Counted from the first letter of the stretch, positions 42,217-62,869 are shown. The stretch: 64,000 bases of DNA from Candidatus Saccharimonadota bacterium (GCA_027450165.1 DAIDKE010000001.1:134373-198372); one strand, 5' to 3'. Notes: a model not told the origin generated them from the letters alone. Numbers and translations are program-made.

Positions 42217-43221
42217 TTAAGCCGGCAAGGCATAGACGATTACCCGATGATCGAGTGTCTTGCCGTCTTTGGTCCAGTCACCGGCACAGGTTATTAAGTT
42301 TAGACCCTGCTGATGTGAGTCGTAGGGAACCAGAACCTGTGTCATGTCAACTTGGTTAAGGGGTACTATCTCAACTTTAGCAACGGCAAAGTTCAGCTTG
42401 GTGCCGTCTCCCTTCTCGATAGTAATAGTATCGCCATCAACTAATGTCTCTAGCCTCCCAAACAGACCATAATGCGTACCCGTTTGCGAAGCGTGGCCGT
42501 CAATCAACATCGCCCCAACTTGACCGGGTTTACTGCTGCCGTTATACCACCCTGCGTCATAAATATTATTCGGTGCCTGCAATGAATTATCCTTGTTGAT
42601 GCCCATCGGCAACAGGCGCGCAGCCACTTTTAACTTATTAATATAGATTGCACGAGGTAAATCAGCGGCAACCTTATAGTTCGCCAGGGTATTGGTCGGT
42701 AAAGGCGTAACATCCTTACCATCACCGACGGCTACAGTTACATCCTGAGTTGTAGTCTTTGACTGCGCTGAAGAGGTTAGCGACTGTTTTACTTCGTTAT
42801 TAGTGCGCCAAGTATCATAAACCATATAGGCGGCGGCCAGCAACAAAATCCCAATTATTAGGTCTAGAAACAGCCTATTTAATTTCAATTGATGGCCGTG
42901 CCGCCGCAAACGTTTTTCCTTTCGGCTCGAAGTCGGTTTTAGTTTCGGTTGATGATTGACGGACTGCCTCGGCTCAGCCGTTTTAGCTAAGGGGCTGGTC
43001 GGCATCGCCGGCTTCACCTGAGTAGCTGTCGGAATAGCCACAGGATTGATAACTGGCGCAACCACCAAAGGATCTGGTTGTCGCTTGGGTTGTGCGGGCG
43101 GTAGCTTTACAACATCAATCAGTGGCTGGCGTGGCTTTACGCGCGAAGGCACAACCAAAGGCCGGTTCGGATAGCTTGCCGAACGCTGGCGATTAACCGG
43201 CCTGTTGTGATGATTGTCCAT
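42217..43221 (-). CDS. Sortase with long proline-rich cytoplasmic head
   Basis: 334 residues. About 120 cytoplasmic residues rich in Pro, Arg and Lys, one helix (LFLDLIIGILLLAAAYMVY), then a sortase domain with catalytic His (LIDGHASQTGTHYG), Cys (LNLITCAG) and Arg (LDHRVIVYA). It joins proteins bearing a C-terminal sorting signal to cell-wall peptide or to each other. The class looks nearest E/F. TAAAAT ends 8 nt before the ATG. Candidate substrates are the surface proteins at 52-57 kb. Confidence 0.85.
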   Translation of the reverse strand: MDNHHNRPVNRQRSASYPNRPLVVPSRVKPRQPLIDVVKLPPAQPKRQPDPLVVAPVINPVAIPTATQVKPAMPTSPLAKTAEPRQSVNHQPKLKPTSSRKEKRLRRHGHQLKLNRLFLDLIIGILLLAAAYMVYDTWRTNNEVKQSLTSSAQSKTTTQDVTVAVGDGKDVTPLPTNTLANYKVAADLPRAIYINKLKVAARLLPMGINKDNSLQAPNNIYDAGWYNGSSKPGQVGAMLIDGHASQTGTHYGLFGRLETLVDGDTITIEKGDGTKLNFAVAKVEIVPLNQVDMTQVLVPYDSHQQGLNLITCAGDWTKDGKTLDHRVIVYALPA

Positions 43222-51737: not shown

Positions 51738-52337
51738 TTAGTGCTTTTCCAGGTGCTTGCGCAGACGCTCCGCATAAAGAACATAGGTGTTGCGCGAATA
51801 ATTAAGCAGTTTTTTCAGCTCTAGCTTTTTTAAGACAATGCCGGCCGTTTCGCGCGTTAAGCCCAGCGAGTTTGCAATTTCTTGTTGCGTAATCGACAAT
51901 CGTTTTATCTTCTTATTCGGAAACGCCGAGCCTAAAGTTTCAGCAAAATACAGCAACGTCAGCGCTACTTTATCGTGCGCCTTTGATTGTTCCAACGCCT
52001 CAATGTGCTTCAAATTAGTTAGTAAAATCTTTGTCAGTCGAATGTGCCGACGATACAAACGGTCGGTGTCTTCGTATAGGTACTTTAGATATTCAGCGCA
52101 CGGCACTACCCGAATATGGCACTTCGTAAAAGCTTCGTAAAAATATTGCGACCTATCAATAAGTCCAAGCGAAAGTCCTATCGGTATATCTTCGCCAGCC
52201 GCATCAATCGAAATAATACGCTCATTCCCATCAGGGGTAATGGCGTATGTTTTAACAATTCCAGACTCAATAACATAAGTACCTTCCGGCACCTCGTCCT
52301 TTAAAAGAATCGTTTGACCCTTTTCAAAAACCAGCAA
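51738..52337 (-). CDS. Crp/Fnr family transcriptional regulator
   Basis: N-terminal cyclic-nucleotide-type beta barrel (VPEGTYVIESGIVKTY), dimer helix, and winged helix (LSITQQEIANSLGLTRETA). No Fnr-type cysteine cluster. First canonical start is TTG 52337, but coding clearly continues upstream (PESFLSTYRLLVFEKG), where GGAGG sits at 52388-52384 and the only codons at proper distance are GTA (52376) or ATA (52370). The true start is therefore probably non-canonical and about 11 residues longer. A CCCTA-N4-TAGGG element at 52408-52421 may be its operator. Confidence 0.83.
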   Translation of the reverse strand: MLVFEKGQTILLKDEVPEGTYVIESGIVKTYAITPDGNERIISIDAAGEDIPIGLSLGLIDRSQYFYEAFTKCHIRVVPCAEYLKYLYEDTDRLYRRHIRLTKILLTNLKHIEALEQSKAHDKVALTLLYFAETLGSAFPNKKIKRLSITQQEIANSLGLTRETAGIVLKKLELKKLLNYSRNTYVLYAERLRKHLEKH

Positions 52338-52455: not shown

Positions 52456-54270
52456 TTAGCTTAGCAGACGGCGCACACCAACCAGGCCAAGCGCAACCAC
52501 GACTATCGAGCCAATGGCAATCAGCAGGCGTAAGTCATATGAATCGACTGGCTTTTTTATGGAATCACTTAGAACCATCGCCTGAGTTGACTGCGAGTTA
52601 TTTGACGATGGCGGATAGGTGGCGCTTGTTTCGGTGGCAATAAAGTCTCGACTATCAATCACTTGAATTGGTATCTTCACACTGCTGGTAACGGGCGCCG
52701 TACTCGGCCTAAACTCAACCGGCTGCGATGGCTGTTGCTGAACCGTAGGATTACCGGCCGGCGTATCAATACCGAAGCTGCCGTACCAATTCTGGAAGAC
52801 ATTTATAAACAAGATACCAAACCAGCCGGTTAAACTCAGCTGACTATTCGTGACATTGGCAACATTTACCATTGCCTTAGCGTCACCGCTAGTTGCATTG
52901 CCAGCGGTCGTATTATTTGACACCGTTGCTGCACCGGATTGAGCGTTAACAGCGATGGTGTTGGTAATGCCATATTTTGATTGCGTTTGAACGGTTAAAT
53001 CAGGTGAGTAAGATGCATCAGACGTTACACCGTTACCAATCAAAGCCGACGTTGCACCCTGCGGCGCGTCGACAATCACACCAACCCATTTACCTAGTAC
53101 ATTCACAAATACCAGCAGACTATTTTGAGCGATAATTTGGTGACCAGATAAGTTAAAAATCACGACATTTGTTTGAGCGTTGCCGGTTGTGGCATTGCCG
53201 GCGGTCGTATTACCGAACACACTGGCTGCGCCGCTATTGGCGACGGCCGATATATTATTAATAATCGATTGCGTGTCTTGGTTTGATACCTGCGTCGTTG
53301 ACGAAGAATTAGTCGTGCCACCATTATTGGCGATCATTTGCGGAATAAAATCTGGTGCAATTAAAATATCGCCGTTCAAGTTTCCATATATATTAATCGT
53401 CCCGACAAATGACTGCTGCGTGGCGATCATGGAGTTCAAGACATTAACAACGTTGGCTACAGCCGTTGCCGAACCACTGGTTGCGTCGCCGGCGGTTGTA
53501 TTACCCGAGACTGTCGCATTGCCAGACGTGGCGCCAATGTTAAGGTTATTATTAACATTCAGATTGTTATTAACGGTCGCGGTCGACTGCAAATTTGCCG
53601 GTGCTTTGGCTTCAAGCATTGCCTTCAAAATTAGCGGACTTAGAACGATGTCGCCATTAACATCACCCAGCACATTTTGCGTAAAACTGGCCACTTTTGA
53701 ATTGTTGTCGAGCCCCAGTGTCGAGTTGACCGTATTGAGAATTGTAGCCGTCGATGCGGCATCGCCCGAAGTTGCATCGCCGGCGGTCGTATTATCAGCA
53801 ACCGTCGCGTTACCAGACGTCGCACTGCTATTAATGTCATTACCAACGCTGGCATCTGTATTTGATGTGCTGTTGGTGCTGGCCGACGTATTATCGGTCG
53901 GCTGATTTGTTGTCGACACCGGCGGCGCAATTATGACCGGTGCCGGCGGCTTTTCGTACACACCCGTCACCGGGTTGTACACCCACTGCGAACTGTCCCA
54001 ATGTCCAGTTTGGGTATTGTAAGTATAGGTCGGCTCCGCAGGTGCCGTCGGAGTTGTTGTGTCGGTCGTTACCGGAGTATTCGTCGGTGTTGATGTATCG
54101 GCTGTCGATGGCGGCGTCGCGCTGGCGTCAGTTGTTGTGGTGTCAACCGGCGTCGTTGGGGCTACCGCTTCGGCGCCAACTATATCCGCGAACGGATAAG
54201 TCGCCACAAGAACCATCGTTGCTAAATAAATTCCAAATCTTCGTAAAAGCCCGGTCCTTCGTCTGTGCAT
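52456..54270 (-). CDS. Large repeat-containing surface protein
   Basis: 604 residues. Signal peptide (1-33, ...YPFADIVGAEA), Thr/Pro-rich linker (36-75), a YNTQTGHWDSSQWVYNP segment, then four copies of a repeat around NTTAGDATSGDA (near 155, 255, 350 and 455) separated by Asn-rich beta segments (NNNLNVNNNLNIG), suggesting a beta-solenoid. It ends in one helix (LLIAIGSIVVVALGLVG) and RRLLS. No LPxTG-like motif. Repeats are shared with the next two exported proteins of the locus. Ribosome site AAAGGAGG. Likely a cell-surface fibre or adhesin. Confidence 0.82.
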   Translation of the reverse strand: MHRRRTGLLRRFGIYLATMVLVATYPFADIVGAEAVAPTTPVDTTTTDASATPPSTADTSTPTNTPVTTDTTTPTAPAEPTYTYNTQTGHWDSSQWVYNPVTGVYEKPPAPVIIAPPVSTTNQPTDNTSASTNSTSNTDASVGNDINSSATSGNATVADNTTAGDATSGDAASTATILNTVNSTLGLDNNSKVASFTQNVLGDVNGDIVLSPLILKAMLEAKAPANLQSTATVNNNLNVNNNLNIGATSGNATVSGNTTAGDATSGSATAVANVVNVLNSMIATQQSFVGTINIYGNLNGDILIAPDFIPQMIANNGGTTNSSSTTQVSNQDTQSIINNISAVANSGAASVFGNTTAGNATTGNAQTNVVIFNLSGHQIIAQNSLLVFVNVLGKWVGVIVDAPQGATSALIGNGVTSDASYSPDLTVQTQSKYGITNTIAVNAQSGAATVSNNTTAGNATSGDAKAMVNVANVTNSQLSLTGWFGILFINVFQNWYGSFGIDTPAGNPTVQQQPSQPVEFRPSTAPVTSSVKIPIQVIDSRDFIATETSATYPPSSNNSQSTQAMVLSDSIKKPVDSYDLRLLIAIGSIVVVALGLVGVRRLLS

Positions 54271-54290
54271 AACACCTCCTTTACCTCGGG

Positions 54291-54328
54291 GGCGGAAAGT
54301 GGTGGCTCACACCCTGCCACTTTCCGCC
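54291..54328 (-). promoter_or_regulatory. Strong 12-bp hairpin between two surface-protein genes
   Basis: GGCGGAAAGTGG / CCACTTTCCGCC with a 14-nt loop and no T-run, in the leader of the 604-residue gene. Might protect the upstream mRNA 3' end or attenuate read-through. Confidence 0.6.
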
Positions 54329-54349
54329 AATAACTCACCCAGCTATCTA

Positions 54350-54946
54350 CTAATTAGATACACTAACAGTAAAGCTAGTTGTACTGTCGTTGGTTGCATC
54401 ACCAGTTACGGCACTGCCGCCGGTGGTGTTATCCTGTACAGTCGCGTCACCCGAGTTCGCGCACTGGCTAACCGAGTTGTGAACATCGAGATGGTTATCG
54501 TTGTTCAAGTTAACATAGGTGTGACTATCAAAAGTAACCTTGTTTGATGAGTCAGGACCAGTGTTGTCGATACTACCCGAGTTATTTGTAGGGTCGTTAG
54601 TAAGGTTGGCCGTCGTTAAGGCCGACTGCGTGTTACTAACAGCGACATTACCAGTGACACTACTAGTGTTTGCCGCATTACCAGTTTGCGCGCCACCGGC
54701 TGTCGTGTTGTGGACAGCTACAGCACTACCGGTGTAGGCGTGTTGCTGGGTCTGGGCTGCTAAGTTAACCCTGTTTTCGTTGTTGGCGCGAACCGTGGTA
54801 CTAGTCTGGTTGCGAACCTCATTATTAGAGTCCGGTCCAGTTGTGCCGATCGTACCAGAGCTTGCTCCCGCAAACCCGGCTACACCAACTACAAGCGCCA
54901 ACGAAGTGAGGCCGGCGCCAGCAATTTTTTTAAAATTTGCTTTCAT
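54350..54946 (-). CDS. Exported repeat protein sharing the TGPDS motif
   Basis: 198 residues. Signal peptide (1-28), then GTTGPDSNNEVRNQ and a second IDNTGPDSSNKV copy, with two repeats HNTTAGGAQTGNAAN and DNTTGGSAVTGDATN. No membrane anchor at the C-terminus, so it is either secreted or held by partners. GGAGGG ribosome site 3 nt before the ATG. Small, abundant-looking and first in order before the 604-residue protein. Confidence 0.78.
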   Translation of the reverse strand: MKANFKKIAGAGLTSLALVVGVAGFAGASSGTIGTTGPDSNNEVRNQTSTTVRANNENRVNLAAQTQQHAYTGSAVAVHNTTAGGAQTGNAANTSSVTGNVAVSNTQSALTTANLTNDPTNNSGSIDNTGPDSSNKVTFDSHTYVNLNNDNHLDVHNSVSQCANSGDATVQDNTTGGSAVTGDATNDSTTSFTVSVSN

Positions 54947-55141
54947 ACACCCTCCTTTACCGTGTCGCCATAAACCTCACCGCAACAGGCGCGTACCCAA
55001 GCCCCCGCAGGGGAACATTCAACTTGGTTTCCAGCGAAGCTCCACACTCCGCACGCGACCAGTCCGTGAATCATCCTCGCGACTCAATCTGAGGATAGCT
55101 TGTAATTGGCTTGAACGTATACGAGAATTCTCACATATACG
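54947..55141 (-). promoter_or_regulatory. Structured 195-nt leader/promoter region of the surface genes
   Basis: Contains the palindrome GAGAATTCTC (55123-55132) flanked by GTATAC/CATATAC, and downstream a CCAAG...CTTGG hairpin enclosing CCCC-TGC-GGGG near 54993-55024. No ORF supported. Probable promoter and operator for the two repeat-protein genes. Confidence 0.45.
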
Positions 55142-55987
55142 TCATTTTGTAAGTGTTGAGCGAGAGAATAGTCGCATTACCCCAACAACCGGAAAAAGAA
55201 AGGTTGATAGCGAAGCCGAAAAAACTAATACTAATTTGGTTTTTATATTTTGGTAACAACTAAGCCATATTACACCCAGACCATACGCCGTAACGAGTAG
55301 CCAGGCGCCAAAAATTAACCTTAGCTCACCTACGGCAAATGCAGCCAAGATAATAGTGGCGAACAACATCACAGCGATTGTATCCCGAAAATGTGAGTTA
55401 TAGCGCAGGGTTGATTTCGGCTTACCGTCGCCAGTTATAAAACCGTCGCTTGTAAAAACTTTTGTCGGGCGGACAAGCTGCCAATAATCTTTTTCTAACA
55501 TCCGAATCACATCCATAAGCTGCGGGCCACTGCCTGTCTCAATCTTTTCGTAGACCGCAACCCGCCAAGCCGCTTGCTTATTTTGCGATGCCACAGCACG
55601 CTTGATTAACGCCTCGTCGACTACCTCGCCAGCATCCAGCACAATAACTACTGTGCCGCGCCGACTTTTGCTATAACCAAGTTTCAAGGCTTGGGCAGAT
55701 TGCTTTTTCGTTAAACCGGCACCTTTGACCACTAAAATATCGTAATTGTAATAGTGAACCTTATTCAGCGACTTAAGCGTCAGCGCCGTCGCCACATCTG
55801 ATTTTCCGATTGCGTCAACCACGACGGTTACCCATGGCTGCTTCGGCCGGCGCAAACAACGCATTTTATGCCGTAGTTCGGCCTGGTGGCGCAGGTCGAT
55901 AATCTGTTTTATCGATAACGCGACTATTCCAATCGCAAAGCAAAGCACCGCTACAAAAAAGCTAAACAACAAAATATCATCCTTCAT
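55142..55987 (-). CDS. Membrane protein with glycosyltransferase-2-like domain
   Basis: 281 residues: N-terminal helix, a soluble domain (50-190) beginning PWVTVVVDAIGKSD and containing NYDILVVKGAG and VVIVLDAGEVVDEALI, which follow the GT-A pattern of family 2 glycosyltransferases, then two to three helices. The usual DxD is reduced to LDAGE, so activity is uncertain. It overlaps the sortase gene by 11 nt, suggesting a role in modifying or assembling the surface proteins. Confidence 0.6.
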   Translation of the reverse strand: MKDDILLFSFFVAVLCFAIGIVALSIKQIIDLRHQAELRHKMRCLRRPKQPWVTVVVDAIGKSDVATALTLKSLNKVHYYNYDILVVKGAGLTKKQSAQALKLGYSKSRRGTVVIVLDAGEVVDEALIKRAVASQNKQAAWRVAVYEKIETGSGPQLMDVIRMLEKDYWQLVRPTKVFTSDGFITGDGKPKSTLRYNSHFRDTIAVMLFATIILAAFAVGELRLIFGAWLLVTAYGLGVIWLSCYQNIKTKLVLVFSASLSTFLFPVVGVMRLFSRSTLTK

Positions 55988-56579
55988 AGCCTGTTACTCC
56001 CGTCAGCCGAAAAGTAACCAGTGTGCGGTAGGCGTCAAAAACGCCAGAACAGGTTTGCAACACCAATTCCGGCGGACCGTCACTTGTAATTACGCTTGTA
56101 TCGGTCGGCGTAACCTGCTGGCTCGACGCATATTCATAATTAAATACCAGGCCTTCCTGGGTATAAACTTTCGCCTCACCGCCCTGAATGTTCGAGATGC
56201 TTCCAAATACCACCGCCGTGCCATGGCCGTAAATTAGCGTCATACCATTGTTATCATTTGGCGGCGTCGATGTGTCAGCAAAAAAAGCCGAACGGTCATC
56301 AATCGTCCAAGTTTGATTTTCTGGTGAATAGGTACCGGTGCGCACGCCGATGTCGATACCCACACTCGGCACAACAATTCGCGTTGGCGTGCCGATGTGA
56401 ATCACCCGCTCCTGCGGATGAAATGCGATTGGCATAACAGATGCAACGCGCACATCCACGACCGGCGCCACAGGTGCAGGGTACAAAATAACCGCAAACA
56501 TCACCACCAAACAAAGGTTTAATAGAGTAAGCGCGGCGTACACCGGCCAACTAGACGCGGCAAGTCGGCGTTTCACCAT
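55977..56579 (-). CDS. Sortase
   Basis: 200 residues. N-terminal helix (VYAALTLLNLCLVVMFAVIL), then a sortase beta barrel with His (LIYGHGTAVVFG), Cys (ELVLQTCSG) and Arg (DAYRTLVTFRL). Starts 5 nt after the stop of the exported protein gene ahead of it, which carries a C-terminal LPFTS-helix-basic tail, its likely substrate. Second sortase of the window (other at 42217). Confidence 0.85.
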   Translation of the reverse strand: MVKRRLAASSWPVYAALTLLNLCLVVMFAVILYPAPVAPVVDVRVASVMPIAFHPQERVIHIGTPTRIVVPSVGIDIGVRTGTYSPENQTWTIDDRSAFFADTSTPPNDNNGMTLIYGHGTAVVFGSISNIQGGEAKVYTQEGLVFNYEYASSQQVTPTDTSVITSDGPPELVLQTCSGVFDAYRTLVTFRLTGVTGYEG

Positions 56580-56584
56580 AATAC

Positions 56585-57130
56585 CTATGGCAAAACTTTA
56601 AAGTGTCTATATAGCAGCACACCGGCAACACTTGCTCCAGCCACTAGCGCCGCAATTCCAGCTACCCACTCGGCCGTCTGCAATGTGTTGTCGCTGCTCG
56701 TAAACGGCAGAGCGGCTGGCTTAACTTGCTCACTCGGTGTCACTGGCGTTGTTGGCGGCTCGGTCGCCGGCGTCACAACCGTCGCCACACAAGTCGACAG
56801 CGGATCACCATCATTAATAGCATTGTTAATTGTTACCGAAAAAGTCGTACCACTAGAGTTCGTCACCGAACCCGAAGTCGTACTACCCCCGGAAGTATCG
56901 CCACTGGTTGTTACCGTACCAGACGCCACCACCTGATTGGTATCGTTGGTAATCGTTACTGTGTTGGTATTATTCACCGTACACTGATACGTCGTGGTTG
57001 ACGTACACATATTGTTTGAATCCGGTCCCGTAAAACCGACCCCACAAGTTGCTTGCGCCGCTACCGGCGCCCCTGCTAATAATGGCGCCACCACCAAGGC
57101 CACTACCGTTAGTATGACTCGCTTCTTCAT
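56585..57130 (-). CDS. Exported TGPDS protein with sortase-type C-terminal signal
   Basis: 181 residues. Signal peptide (1-26), then CGVGFTGPDSNNMCTSTTTY, sharing the TGPDSNN block with the protein at 54350, and a Ser/Thr/Gly repeat segment (SGDTSGGSTTSGSV). The C-terminus ALPFTSSDN, a hydrophobic helix (VAGIAALVAGASVAGVLLY) and RHFKVLP is laid out like a sorting signal with LPFTS in place of LPxTG. Directly upstream of a sortase gene. GGAGGG ribosome site. Confidence 0.8.
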   Translation of the reverse strand: MKKRVILTVVALVVAPLLAGAPVAAQATCGVGFTGPDSNNMCTSTTTYQCTVNNTNTVTITNDTNQVVASGTVTTSGDTSGGSTTSGSVTNSSGTTFSVTINNAINDGDPLSTCVATVVTPATEPPTTPVTPSEQVKPAALPFTSSDNTLQTAEWVAGIAALVAGASVAGVLLYRHFKVLP

Positions 57131-57232: not shown

Positions 57233-57493
57233 TTAGCGACCGTACCTAGCTTCAACCTGCTGTTTGTTAATACCGTTCGTCAAATTTGTGTAGCCCATGC
57301 TGCGCAAAATCTGAATCGAAACATTTGATCGACTTCCGGTTCGGCAATACAAAATCATTGGCGTGTCTTTGGGCACACCAACCAGTTTTTTGGCGCCCGC
57401 CATCAGCTCGCTTGGCGGAATATTTAGCGCATTTTTAACGTGGCCCATCTTAAACTCAAACGGTTCGCGTACATCAATGATGATTGGTTTCAT
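57233..57493 (-). CDS. Single-domain rhodanese
   Basis: 86 residues: IIDVREPFEFKMGHVKNALN and active-site loop YCRTGSRS with catalytic Cys. Sulfur transferase. Overlaps the end of the Fur-family gene by 20 nt, so it is cotranscribed and probably controlled by that regulator. The 102 nt after it to 57131 contain only promoter-type AT-rich sequence. Confidence 0.88.
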   Translation of the reverse strand: MKPIIIDVREPFEFKMGHVKNALNIPPSELMAGAKKLVGVPKDTPMILYCRTGSRSNVSIQILRSMGYTNLTNGINKQQVEARYGR

Positions 57494-57878
57494 TTTTTAA
57501 CTCCTTATTACACTTTTTACATAGCCCCGTCACCACCAAATTGCCCGATATCTCGCAGCCATCGCCGATTGAATCTTCAAGCAACGGCCGTATTTCACTG
57601 GCAATATCGGTGTCGCGCAACATATCACAATTACTGCACAAAAAATGGTCGTGCGGCTCAACATTAATATCAAACCGCATCGCGTTACCCTTGGCCGCCG
57701 GCGCCAAGGCCAGCTTGCCACGCTCAACCAAGCGCGACGTTATACGGTGGACCGTTGTCACACTAACGTCGGCATAGGTTTTTTGCATATGCTCAAGAAT
57801 CTCGATATTAGTGGCATGATGCACCCGTTCGAGAAAATCCTGAACATCTTTGGTATAACGCGTCGCGCGTTCGATCAT
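57474..57878 (-). CDS. Fur family regulator (Fur/PerR/Zur type)
   Basis: 134 residues: N-terminal winged helix (TYADVSVTTVHRITSRLVER), then metal sites HDHFLCSNC and a C-terminal CKKC, giving the two CxxC pairs of the structural zinc. Metal specificity is not decidable. The gene begins 6 nt after TACAAT, and a perfect 8-1-8 palindrome lies on that -10 box, so it most likely represses itself and the rhodanese. Confidence 0.88.
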   Translation of the reverse strand: MIERATRYTKDVQDFLERVHHATNIEILEHMQKTYADVSVTTVHRITSRLVERGKLALAPAAKGNAMRFDINVEPHDHFLCSNCDMLRDTDIASEIRPLLEDSIGDGCEISGNLVVTGLCKKCNKELKNETNHH

Positions 57879-59507: not shown

Positions 59508-60113
59508 TTAGTCGTCACCGCCACCACCGCCGCTACTTGGCACCGTGATGTAAATTGGTGTAATAACTTTTTGAATTACTATTTGGGTTTGCGTCTCAGG
59601 CGCTACCGGCTTGGCTACAACCTGAAAATCGGCATAGGGTATGGCCGTGTAATTGCTCGCAAAACTTGCGATACGATAAATACCAGGCTTTTTAAAAAGG
59701 TTTGGCCAATCAGCGAAAGTTTGAGTATACGTACCGTTAGCAGCAATTGTTACTTGGCTGGGCTTGCCAGCACAAGTTGAGTTCGCCGCCTTGTCATGAA
59801 TACGCACCCAAGAACTATTGTTCCATGAATAAACATATAGCGGTTCTTGCGGGCAATTATTAGTTAAAACTATAGGTACACTCAGACCATTTTTCAGAGT
59901 ATAGCCTATCTCATCACCAACTGTGTATTTCGTTTTTGAGGTAGTCAAGCTTAATTTGCCGCTCGCGAAGTTTAAGGTGTTGACGGTCGAGGCTTGCCGG
60001 TAAACTACAAAAGCAAAACCTAGTACCAGCAAGATATAGATAGCTACCCAGCCAAAGAGGCGCTTGCGCCTGTTGCGCTCGCGGATAGTTGCTAGCGCTG
60101 GTACCTGATTCAT
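59508..60113 (-). CDS. Membrane-anchored Ig-like protein of the electron-transfer cluster
   Basis: 201 residues: one N-terminal helix (LFGWVAIYILLVLGFAFVVY) and an external beta domain (KTKYTVGDEIGYTLKNG ... GIYRIASFAS) of the BsuPI/Ig-like type with two Cys, ending in a Gly/Asp tail. Its start overlaps the ferric-reductase-like gene by 4 nt. Function unknown. Confidence 0.68.
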   Translation of the reverse strand: MNQVPALATIRERNRRKRLFGWVAIYILLVLGFAFVVYRQASTVNTLNFASGKLSLTTSKTKYTVGDEIGYTLKNGLSVPIVLTNNCPQEPLYVYSWNNSSWVRIHDKAANSTCAGKPSQVTIAANGTYTQTFADWPNLFKKPGIYRIASFASNYTAIPYADFQVVAKPVAPETQTQIVIQKVITPIYITVPSSGGGGGDD

Positions 60114-60838
60114 TGCGCCCTAGCCCTCCTGCGCAGCCTATAAACAATAGCTATCGCAACCACACAACCAAAAATAATCCATATGACACGCAGGGCGCCT
60201 TGCATTAAGTCGGTTCCCAAATACAGCGCGTGGAAGAAAACAAATATCATAGTTAGGTAGGCCAGGAAATGGAATAGCTTCCAGGTGTGTGGCTTTTTAT
60301 CGATCCATAAAATAGAGCTTAAGATGATAGCAAGCACAAAATACAGCGCAAGCACGCCCATAGCAACGTAGATTGACCCTAAGTGATAGCCACCGATGCT
60401 AACTTCTTTGTAGTGCGACAGAAACGGCAAAAGTATCTGCGCAACCGTGAACGGTACATACGAATCAAATAGCAGTGTGATAACGTGAATTAAAACTGAG
60501 ACACCAAATACAAAGGCGATTGCTTTATGAGTCGCCCAAGCCGTAAGCGGCTCAAGAAAACGGAAGGTAGCGCCGGTAATAAAACCGATTCCAGAGAGCA
60601 TCAACACCACTAACGAGATGGCCGCCACAAAGCCTGCAGCCCTAGTAACATACCACGGCCACGAAGATTTGGCTCGAGACTCTAGTTGCCGAGCGACGCT
60701 AGGCCCTTGGACGGGTTTGACTAATATGTTAGGCGAATCGTTGGTGCTACTGACCGCAAATACCGATGTCGGCATTAGGCAGCAGGCAGCCAACGATATT
60801 ACGCCGGCTATTTTAATAGCTAAAAAAACTTTATGCAT
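60110..60838 (-). CDS. Ferric-reductase-like heme membrane protein
   Basis: 242 residues: a signal-type first helix, an external loop of about 45 residues, then five to six helices carrying paired histidines (WATHKAIAFVFGVSVLIH and KLFHFLAYLTMIFVFFHAL) spaced as in ferric-reductase/MsrQ-like transmembrane domains that bind two b-type hemes. It would carry electrons across the membrane. Overlaps ApbE at its 5' end by 8 nt. Confidence 0.75.
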   Translation of the reverse strand: MHKVFLAIKIAGVISLAACCLMPTSVFAVSSTNDSPNILVKPVQGPSVARQLESRAKSSWPWYVTRAAGFVAAISLVVLMLSGIGFITGATFRFLEPLTAWATHKAIAFVFGVSVLIHVITLLFDSYVPFTVAQILLPFLSHYKEVSIGGYHLGSIYVAMGVLALYFVLAIILSSILWIDKKPHTWKLFHFLAYLTMIFVFFHALYLGTDLMQGALRVIWIIFGCVVAIAIVYRLRRRARAQ

Positions 60839-61775
60839 GAACAGCTCCTAAAGTAATATTACTACCCAACGACACAATGCGAGACCCCCCGTTTTTGGCT
60901 TGGCATTGCAGCACTGCAGCTTTGACTCCCTTATTTTTTAGAAATTCCATCCCCAGGCTGCAGCCTAGTATAATCGCACAACTTGCCAGTACGTCGGCCC
61001 GTAAGGATGAGTTGTCGTGTACGGTCGCTAGAAATACATCTGTCTTTGCTGGTTGCAATGTTCGTGGATCAATAATATGATGCCAAGATCTACCATTCTT
61101 CTTGCCTTTATGTACAGTTGTGCCAGATGTTGCCACACCAGACGGCGAGGTAATCGTAATACCACCAATGTCGCGCTTTTGATTGTCGGCGGCTTGGATA
61201 GTCACAAACCACGGCTGGCGATTGTCATTTTGGCCGCCGATCGCTATATCACCACCGAGTGATAGCCAGTAGCCGGTAACCAAATCTGGCAATTTAGCTC
61301 GCAGCGAGTCCGCTAAATAACCCTTACCACACCCCCCAAGATCTAGTGCCGATCCATAAGGAATTCGCGCCCAAGTATCACCAATCTCTAGCTGGTCAAT
61401 GCCTACGACTGTTTTACCAGAATAATCATCTACTTCGTCTTGTTCTCGCCCGGGCACCCGAGACCCAACATAGCCAGCAGCTTGAAGCGCTGGTAGGATA
61501 AATGGATTGTATAGACCTTCAGTATCTTGGGCAATTGCGCGGGCAGCTGTTAACAGTTCATGAAATTCAGGAGTAATCGATTTTTTGACGCCGGCACTTC
61601 TATTAAAAGTTGACAGTTCACTATCTGGCAAAAATCGACTAAAGCGTCGCTCAAACAAAAAAATCTCTCGCCACAACTTGTGGTACAGGGCCTCAATATC
61701 GCCAGCCGGCGCCTCGCTCACAAGTGACAGGCCGGTTTTACTACCAAGCGCGACAAACTCCTGGTAATACTGCAT
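60831..61775 (-). CDS. apbE: FAD:protein FMN transferase (ApbE)
   Basis: 314 residues from MQYYQEFVALG (ATG 61775, TGATG overlap with the reductase stop; an upstream in-frame codon is less likely). LDLGGCGKGYLADSL, YWLSLGGDIAIGG, SGTTVHKG and HHIIDPRTLQPAKT are the ApbE signature blocks. It attaches FMN covalently to Thr in target proteins; no typical FMN-binding-domain target is in the window. No obvious lipobox, so location is unclear. Confidence 0.88.
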   Translation of the reverse strand: MQYYQEFVALGSKTGLSLVSEAPAGDIEALYHKLWREIFLFERRFSRFLPDSELSTFNRSAGVKKSITPEFHELLTAARAIAQDTEGLYNPFILPALQAAGYVGSRVPGREQDEVDDYSGKTVVGIDQLEIGDTWARIPYGSALDLGGCGKGYLADSLRAKLPDLVTGYWLSLGGDIAIGGQNDNRQPWFVTIQAADNQKRDIGGITITSPSGVATSGTTVHKGKKNGRSWHHIIDPRTLQPAKTDVFLATVHDNSSLRADVLASCAIILGCSLGMEFLKNKGVKAAVLQCQAKNGGSRIVSLGSNITLGAVHA

Positions 61776-62869
61776 CAGATACACCTTCCTGACGGTGTCG
61801 TCTGACAAGTAGGCGCCGGCGCGGTTATGGGCGCCGTATAGATTGGGGCAGCAGTCTGAGGCGCCGGGTTGACGGTACTTGAACTAGACCCAGACGATTG
61901 ATTATCCGTCGGAGCCGTAATAACATCTGGCGATGGTGGAATACTATTGATGAGCTGATCAAGCTGCTCACCGCGAGCATTAGTGATAAGATAAGGCGCC
62001 GTCTTGGTTGGCCGCTGGGTTGTGTTTGGCGGTAATGATTTCAATAGATCACTGACAGTTATCGCAAAGGCGCCTAAAGTAAGGCCGATTACTCCAACAG
62101 CATAGATGTTTGCCGGCCAGCTGCGCAATACGCTTGTCTGTTTTGGCGAAGACTGAGTAAAGGCTTCGGTTAAAATACTCGACCTTGAGGCGCCGCGTTT
62201 CGTGAGCACCCCCACCATAGGTTTCATAAAAAACGGCGGTCCACATATAAAAAATCGACGGTCTTGGTAGCTATTGCCCGTAACCTTGTCGAGTAGCTCA
62301 GCTGTTATATAACCAGTTTCGGCCTGCTGCTGTGGCAGTTTATCGACTGGACCTTTACCAACTACGAATACAACCTTAAGGTTCGGGTGACTAGCCTGGA
62401 TCGCCAATAGCTCATCGCCAAACGGTATATCATCTTGGGTCGCACAACTATATAGCAATGTTACGTCATTAGTCGCATTCAAATCGCGCAGGTAGCGCAA
62501 TATGCTTATAAAAGGCGTAATGCCGATTCCGCCAGCTAAAAATACCGCTTTTTTATCGTTTGCCGTGTCAAAAACAAAGCCGCCGAATGGACCCGTAACG
62601 TTAACGACATCGCCAACTTGCAGCTTGCTTAATGCGGTAGTGAATTGTCCTCGTACTCGCATACTAAACTGCAGGCTGTGCTGATCGGTGGGCGAACTGA
62701 CGATTGAAAAACAGCGTGTCGTCGAAGCTTTCCGACGTTTTTCAAAGCTAATTGCCGCATATTGGCCTGGTTGAAACGCCATCGGCCGCTCGGACTCGTC
62801 GCGCTTTAAAGTCAAAAGCAACGTCGAGCCTGTAATTTTAGCGCTTTCTTGAACGACATAGGTATGCAT
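61775..62869 (-). CDS. FAD/NAD(P)H oxidoreductase (FNR-like) with C-terminal membrane anchor
   Basis: 364 residues. Residues 1-235 form a ferredoxin-reductase module: FQPGQYAAI, FAD motif RCFSIVSSP, NAD(P) site GGIGITPFISI and CGPPFFM. A helix follows (NIYAVGVIGLTLGAFAITV), then a Pro/Thr/Ser-rich outside tail ending in two Cys (PTCQTTPSGRCI). No 2Fe-2S cysteines. Likely donor of electrons from cytosolic NAD(P)H to the heme protein encoded downstream. TATAAT ends 10 nt before the ATG. Confidence 0.82.
   Translation of the reverse strand: MHTYVVQESAKITGSTLLLTLKRDESERPMAFQPGQYAAISFEKRRKASTTRCFSIVSSPTDQHSLQFSMRVRGQFTTALSKLQVGDVVNVTGPFGGFVFDTANDKKAVFLAGGIGITPFISILRYLRDLNATNDVTLLYSCATQDDIPFGDELLAIQASHPNLKVVFVVGKGPVDKLPQQQAETGYITAELLDKVTGNSYQDRRFFICGPPFFMKPMVGVLTKRGASRSSILTEAFTQSSPKQTSVLRSWPANIYAVGVIGLTLGAFAITVSDLLKSLPPNTTQRPTKTAPYLITNARGEQLDQLINSIPPSPDVITAPTDNQSSGSSSSTVNPAPQTAAPIYTAPITAPAPTCQTTPSGRCI

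Follow-up and report, generated by a model that had tools for sequence, protein, structure and literature searches.

Chaplins of streptomycetes are small secreted repeat proteins in which one domain occurs in both free and sortase-anchored forms. In curli (CsgA/CsgB), a secreted Asn/Gln/Ser/Gly-rich repeat protein is accompanied by a related surface-bound minor subunit, and in class C sortase pili the surface subunits are clustered with an adjoining dedicated sortase. Within the Saccharibacteria, type IV pili are surface filaments that have been implicated in host binding (PMC12206443), and a CPR-enriched sortase family, fam000526, is reported to be represented by a sortase in more than half of CPR genomes (PMC6744442).

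We have analysed a 64000-nucleotide stretch of DNA (hereafter 'the window') from a Candidatus Saccharimonadota bacterium (GCA_027450165.1 DAIDKE010000001.1:134373-198372), a tiny organism of the parasitic type. An initial annotation had read five of its genes as a putative surface-fibre assembly locus with three exported repeat proteins, a sortase and a GT-2-like membrane protein, had offered curli, chaplins and sortase-built pili as possible parallels and had recognized no described system. On the last point we agree: neither a family nor a system already described came to light, and a word-based search of an incomplete literature set returned no description of the operon.

Organization of the locus

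The five genes, P0005, P0004, P0003, P0002 and P0001, lie on the minus strand of the window at 52456-57130, and the coordinates first given for them were confirmed, as were the export signals of the three repeat proteins. P0005 (56585-57130, minus strand; 181 amino acids) has a signal peptide, a single TGPDS repeat domain, a Pro/Thr linker, an LPFTS sorting signal, a TM helix and a basic tail. The neighbouring gene, P0004 (55977-56579, minus strand; 200 amino acids), does encode a sortase, matching Pfam PF04203 at 5.9e-15, and overlaps by 11 bp, in keeping with the overlap originally noted, with P0003 (55142-55987, minus strand), which encodes a 281-amino-acid membrane protein that is a degenerate GT2 relative. 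P0002 (54350-54946, minus strand; 198 amino acids) consists of a signal peptide and two TGPDS domains, lacks an anchor and ends in a conserved C-terminal xVxN. It is separated from P0001 by a stem-loop on the same strand (54291-54328) with a perfect 12-bp stem, the arms of which are at 54291-54302 and 54317-54328. P0001 itself (52456-54270, minus strand; 604 amino acids) has a signal/TM helix, four beta-rich NTTAG repeats and a C-terminal TM helix at residues 580-603, and immediately downstream of it, also on the minus strand, is a gene for a Crp/Fnr-family regulator (51738-52337; Pfam HTH_Crp_2, 3.9e-9). Promoter and terminator scans gave results that were not clearly above those for shuffled sequence, and a PHROG search for a phage origin gave no match.

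Comparison with described surface systems

The locus resembles curli in that a secreted Asn/Gln/Ser/Gly-rich repeat protein is found with a related surface-bound minor subunit, and in the alternation of small residues around a conserved Gln. However, equivalent Gln residues are ~93 residues apart, compared with the 23-residue curli repeat, and a sortase is present here where curli have an outer-membrane pore. The curlin motif X6QX10Q was found in one of 36 family members, there was no Pfam curlin match at E 0.1, and CsgG (PF03783) was absent from the window's genome in a search for which the E. coli control was positive; lacking the curlin repeat, a Pfam curlin match and CsgG, the locus was rejected as a member of the curli system. 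With class C sortase pili it shares a cluster of surface subunits and an adjoining dedicated sortase, but it has a single LPxT protein and no pilin domains by Pfam. When compared with the sortase class models, P0004 gave an E-value of 0.022 with class C and did better with classes D and F, all of these being below the cut-off, and the class C model matched only one of 13 members of the sortase family. The pilin motif YPK[NDHG] was absent from all three families (0/36, 0/38 and 0/13) and an E-box-like pattern was seen in a single member. With a sortase nearest to class D/F below every cut-off and no YPK motif, assignment as a class C sortase pilus was likewise rejected.

As in chaplins, small secreted repeat proteins carry one domain in free and, by prediction, sortase-anchored versions here, but the sequences are unrelated, P0001 is an extra putative scaffold, and with no Pfam chaplin match chaplin membership was also rejected; of the parallels initially offered, none is supported as membership, the sortase-built pili being judged as class C. 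The locus differs from type IV pili in that P0001-P0005 include no pilin or T4P assembly proteins. P0004 may belong to the fam000526 sortases, for which the accessible part of the paper describes neither substrates nor the P0001-P0005 operon (PMC6744442).

Shared repeats of P0001, P0002 and P0005

The motif TGPDS[NS]N is present in two copies in P0002 (TGPDSNN and TGPDSSN) and one in P0005 (TGPDSNN), and is absent from P0001. Of the NTTAG-type block, P0001 has four copies (residues 152-171, 249-268, 346-365 and 445-464), P0002 has two and P0005 has a single degenerate one. A P0002-family profile, from which this genome's row had been left out, scored P0001 at 82.7 bits and P0005 at 62.3 bits. 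With the same profile, the best score among 1000 shuffled versions of each of these two proteins was 7.4 bits. Because of this difference the similarity cannot be put down to chance, and the repeats that had been noticed as common to proteins of 604, 198 and 181 residues are truly homologous, beyond composition. In the genome from which the window comes (0.79 Mb), only P0001, P0002 and P0005 match the P0002 repeat profile. No family covering the repeat proteins was found in Pfam, NCBIfam, PHROG or PDB (NCBIfam having been searched with P0002 as a single sequence, not an alignment).

Mature proteins of the P0002 family are acidic, contain a median of 59% N/Q/S/T/G, are mostly Cys-free, conserve the xVxN end and have no sorting signal. 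P0001 has no consistent sorting signal either and may therefore lie outside the same covalent structure. An AlphaFold2 prediction for P0002 with 36 relatives gave an unusable model (pLDDT 49.7, pTM 0.31), and because this model is so poor a fibre-forming fold is unproven. In the AlphaFold2 model of P0001, the four repeats are beta structures with a local pLDDT of 85-96, the linkers are disordered and the whole-protein pTM is 0.49. A Foldseek search with this model found nothing significant in PDB or among viral models, which, at a pTM of 0.49, is weak evidence that P0001 might have a new fold. A sequence-profile search of PDB gave no credible relative for P0001 or P0002.

The sortase and its predicted substrate

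The predicted catalytic residues of P0004, H119, C177 and R185, are invariant across 13 aligned sortases, and P0004 has relatives in PDB. A P0005-like protein and the sortase occur together in 13 loci, the window included, and in all 13 the neighbour of the sortase carries a sorting signal, L-[PA]-x-T-[SGA], with the L and T invariant, followed in the P0005-like proteins by a hydrophobic stretch and then a mostly basic tail. P0005 thus has the anatomy of a sortase substrate and is predicted to be a wall-anchored subunit. Six loci have S as the P1' residue, at position five of the signal, three have A and four have G. When S versus G or A was placed on the sortase tree, two changes were needed, which is the minimum and a number that none of 200 shuffles matched. 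The link between sortase and repeat proteins in the initial annotation is thereby borne out, both by the neighbouring signal and by the way in which the P1' residue tracks the sortase tree. LPxTS signals are not new per se, the term already being used in sortase papers on streptococci.

Across the order, a full-length LPxT substrate and a strong sortase are same-strand neighbours 17-69 bp apart in all 14 genomes that have both among the matches listed, and in the 13 of these pair genomes that have P0001 it always lies 0.7-2.6 kb from the pair, in either orientation. The substrate-sortase pair is on the opposite strand in six loci (L035, L037, L038, L044, L047 and L058). P0001 and the system-type sortase co-occur (both, P0001 only, sortase only and neither in 25, 17, 31 and 222 genomes; Fisher p 1.5e-10), as do P0001 and the substrate (16, 26, 2 and 251 genomes; Fisher p 2e-13), in both cases with genomes treated as independent despite their shared ancestry. 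The initial annotation had named, as a finding that would speak against it, relatives with repeat proteins scattered without sortase linkage; this is not so in the present genome but is partly so elsewhere, as 17 of the 42 P0001-positive genomes of the order have no system-type sortase, which shows that the anchor pair is not a required part. Conversely, 31 genomes have the system-type sortase subfamily without P0001, in some cases beside other small LPxTG partners.

Conservation of the gene set

To the window we added 39 loci from a genome-contig scan restricted to two conserved P0001 peptides. In 39 of these 40 Saccharimonadia-type loci the gene directly upstream of P0001 is P0002, the exception being L033 (complete genome CP011211.1), in which no P0002 was called. 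A strong RNA hairpin (z below -2 against mononucleotide shuffles) follows P0002 in 29 of 39 loci, compared with six of 38 for P0001. In fimbrial operons a hairpin after the major-subunit gene is common. Because the hairpin recurs after P0002, and given this parallel, it suggests that P0002 may be made in excess of P0001. Upstream of P0002, 31 of the 40 loci encode a small Ser/Thr-rich protein with an N-terminal anchor (alignment A5), which was not found in the window's genome in a search run without a positive control. One Crp/Fnr subfamily directly follows P0001 in ten of the 40 loci, the window among them.

The description of P0003 as GT-2-like holds only indirectly. Its same-position homologues in three loci (L023, L025 and L031) match GT2 Pfam, with best values of 6.8e-9 to 4.6e-14, but P0003 itself gave no GT2 Pfam match, has DAG in place of DxD and is truncated, and judged by these features it is probably catalytically inactive in the window. 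A gene of this type is present in only four of the 40 loci and is therefore optional, not core. With this distribution and the loss of DxD in P0003, a GT2 as a core glycosylation step, and with it the place of the GT2-like protein among the core parts, was rejected.

Distribution across the Patescibacteria

An initial P0002 search was positive in seven of 61 genomes, this one included. Of the order's 295 genomes, 49 were matched by P0001-family profiles at E<=0.001, and at this threshold the family spans 37 of the order's 137 genera; the match was strong in 42 of the 49. The titles of the P0001 loci are, with two exceptions, those of Saccharibacteria, Saccharimonadia, Patescibacteria or bacterial MAGs; the loci labelled Rhodoglobus and Chlamydiae (L039 and L046) consist of Saccharibacteria-type genes on short contigs and are probably mis-binned. 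The carriers found are mostly environmental metagenome-assembled genomes.

In relatives the gene set is syntenic, and a search for the repeat across the phylum, of the kind first suggested for CPR proteomes, extended its range: in a phylum-wide draw the P0002 profile matched 33 of 380 genomes, 22 of them outside the class. All 22 of these other-class genomes have P0002-like and P0001-like genes together, mostly adjacent and ~1 kb apart in L109; in L102 and L104 the P0002-like frame, dropped by gene calling, was taken from the profile-match coordinates. In about half of the 22 there is a third repeat protein, which ends in an LPxTG-type tail, and in four (L103, L108, L111 and L129) a recognizable sortase lies beside it. 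In L103, L111 and L129 the P0002-like gene, P0001-like gene, LPxTG substrate and sortase are collinear, in an order other than that of the window; the set of genes is thus conserved although their arrangement is not.

Proposed assembly and alternatives

We consider it likely, and hold with good confidence, that P0001, P0002, P0005 and the sortase form one conserved, exported, sortase-linked repeat-protein system. We propose that P0001, P0002 and P0005 would leave the cell by Sec and that P0004 would join P0005 to the cell wall through its LPFTS signal. P0002, secreted and anchor-free, would be the likely major subunit, packing onto P0005 and onto itself via the beta-rich Asn/Ser/Thr/Gly-rich repeats to give a thin fibre or mesh, and P0001, the four repeats of which are longer relatives of this one, would be retained in the membrane through its C-terminal helix and might act as base, scaffold or nucleator; the adjoining Crp/Fnr regulator probably controls the locus. 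Host attachment, wall attachment, polymerization and this division of roles are what we infer. That the whole is a conserved patescibacterial surface assembly, in which P0002 is the major subunit of a beta-rich fibre or coat anchored by the sortase, has about an even chance of being right. Polymerization of P0002 on a P0005 base, for which domain sharing and protein anatomy argue, is to our minds similarly in the balance. The fullest version, a phylum-wide sortase-anchored fibre of an undescribed repeat domain, with P0005 in the wall, P0002 free and P0001 in the membrane, unrelated to curli, chaplins and sortase or type IV pili and serving to attach to other cells, is put forward tentatively.

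A membrane-anchored P0001 might instead display bound P0002 as a non-polymeric coat or adhesin complex, with P0005 as a separate wall-anchored adhesin bearing a related domain and no fibre at all. That P0001 and P0002 are the sole near-invariant pair, that many P0001 genomes have no sortase-substrate pair and that P0001 is anchored in the membrane are all in accord with such a coat; yet a single locus having the domain in anchored, free and scaffold proteins is usual for co-polymerizing subunits, and the conserved hairpin after P0002 suggests an excess of P0002 over P0001, so we regard the coat as possible and rather unlikely. There might also be two independent modules linked by neighbourhood only, one of them P0001 and P0002 as an envelope pair, the other a general sortase and the small protein on which it acts. 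System-type sortases that lie elsewhere, next to small LPxTG proteins of unrelated sequence and with no P0001 nearby, and the six opposite-strand pairs fit this arrangement, but it is improbable given that the substrate and P0002 have the same repeat domain, that all 13 pairs are found no more than 2.6 kb from P0001, whichever way they are oriented, and that other classes hold all the genes in a single collinear operon.

Thr/Ser/Asn-rich repeats of this kind can make flat beta-solenoid faces, and such a face might bind a ligand (ice, glycan or peptidoglycan), the system then serving to protect against stress or to bind a substrate and having no part in assembly. The mainly environmental origin of the metagenome-assembled carriers would suit this role, but there is no match to a ligand-binding family, and a dedicated sortase and a family of three sizes would be left unexplained; we give this explanation very little credence.

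Significance

The means by which Patescibacteria recognize their hosts and keep hold of them are a long-standing question, and the main answer characterized to date is type IV pili (PMC12206443, PMC11665869). Concrete genes to study are offered by a second surface system, which has no known homologues and is conserved in Saccharimonadia and in other classes; the gene set, shared across the phylum, appears to be undescribed. Definition of the repeat families, for which the searches of Pfam, NCBIfam and PHROGs gave no entry, would allow many 'hypothetical' surface proteins to be annotated. The structure that these proteins build, probably a fibre or coat, could help to explain how the cells hold on to other microbes.

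Other genes in the window

Directly upstream of the locus lie two overlapping minus-strand genes (window 57233–57878), which from their sequences are predicted to encode rhodanese-like and Fur-like proteins. Further upstream on the same strand, the overlapping genes of a membrane protein, an ApbE-family protein (match at 7.6e-46) and an FAD/NAD oxidoreductase (60110–62869, minus strand) look like a flavin-linked membrane redox cluster. The window also holds a second sortase of 334 aa (42217–43221, minus strand; PF04203, 2.2e-18). Because weaker matches of approx. 400 aa to the sortase alignment A8 were found in most genomes of the order, a general-purpose sortase of this type may be common there.

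Related loci in other genomes

Very large P0001-like proteins of 2097 aa (L132, 9310–15603, plus strand) and 1183 aa (L109, 7873–11424, plus strand) occur in Patescibacteria of other classes. The Saccharibacteria-type operon is also present on short contigs labelled Rhodoglobus and Chlamydiae (L039 and L046), which are probably mis-binned.

Some system-type sortases, members of the P0004 subfamily, are located away from P0001 and adjoined by tiny ORFs of 57–84 aa (L117, 8379–8561, and L118, 5901–6155, both plus strand; L119, 6765–7016, and L121, 3948–4121, both minus strand); the L118 source genome carries P0001 at another place. All four ORFs lack a signal peptide; they comprise scarcely more than 'MYG..LG...LPxTG' and a transmembrane tail, and possibly represent sortase-anchored micropeptides.
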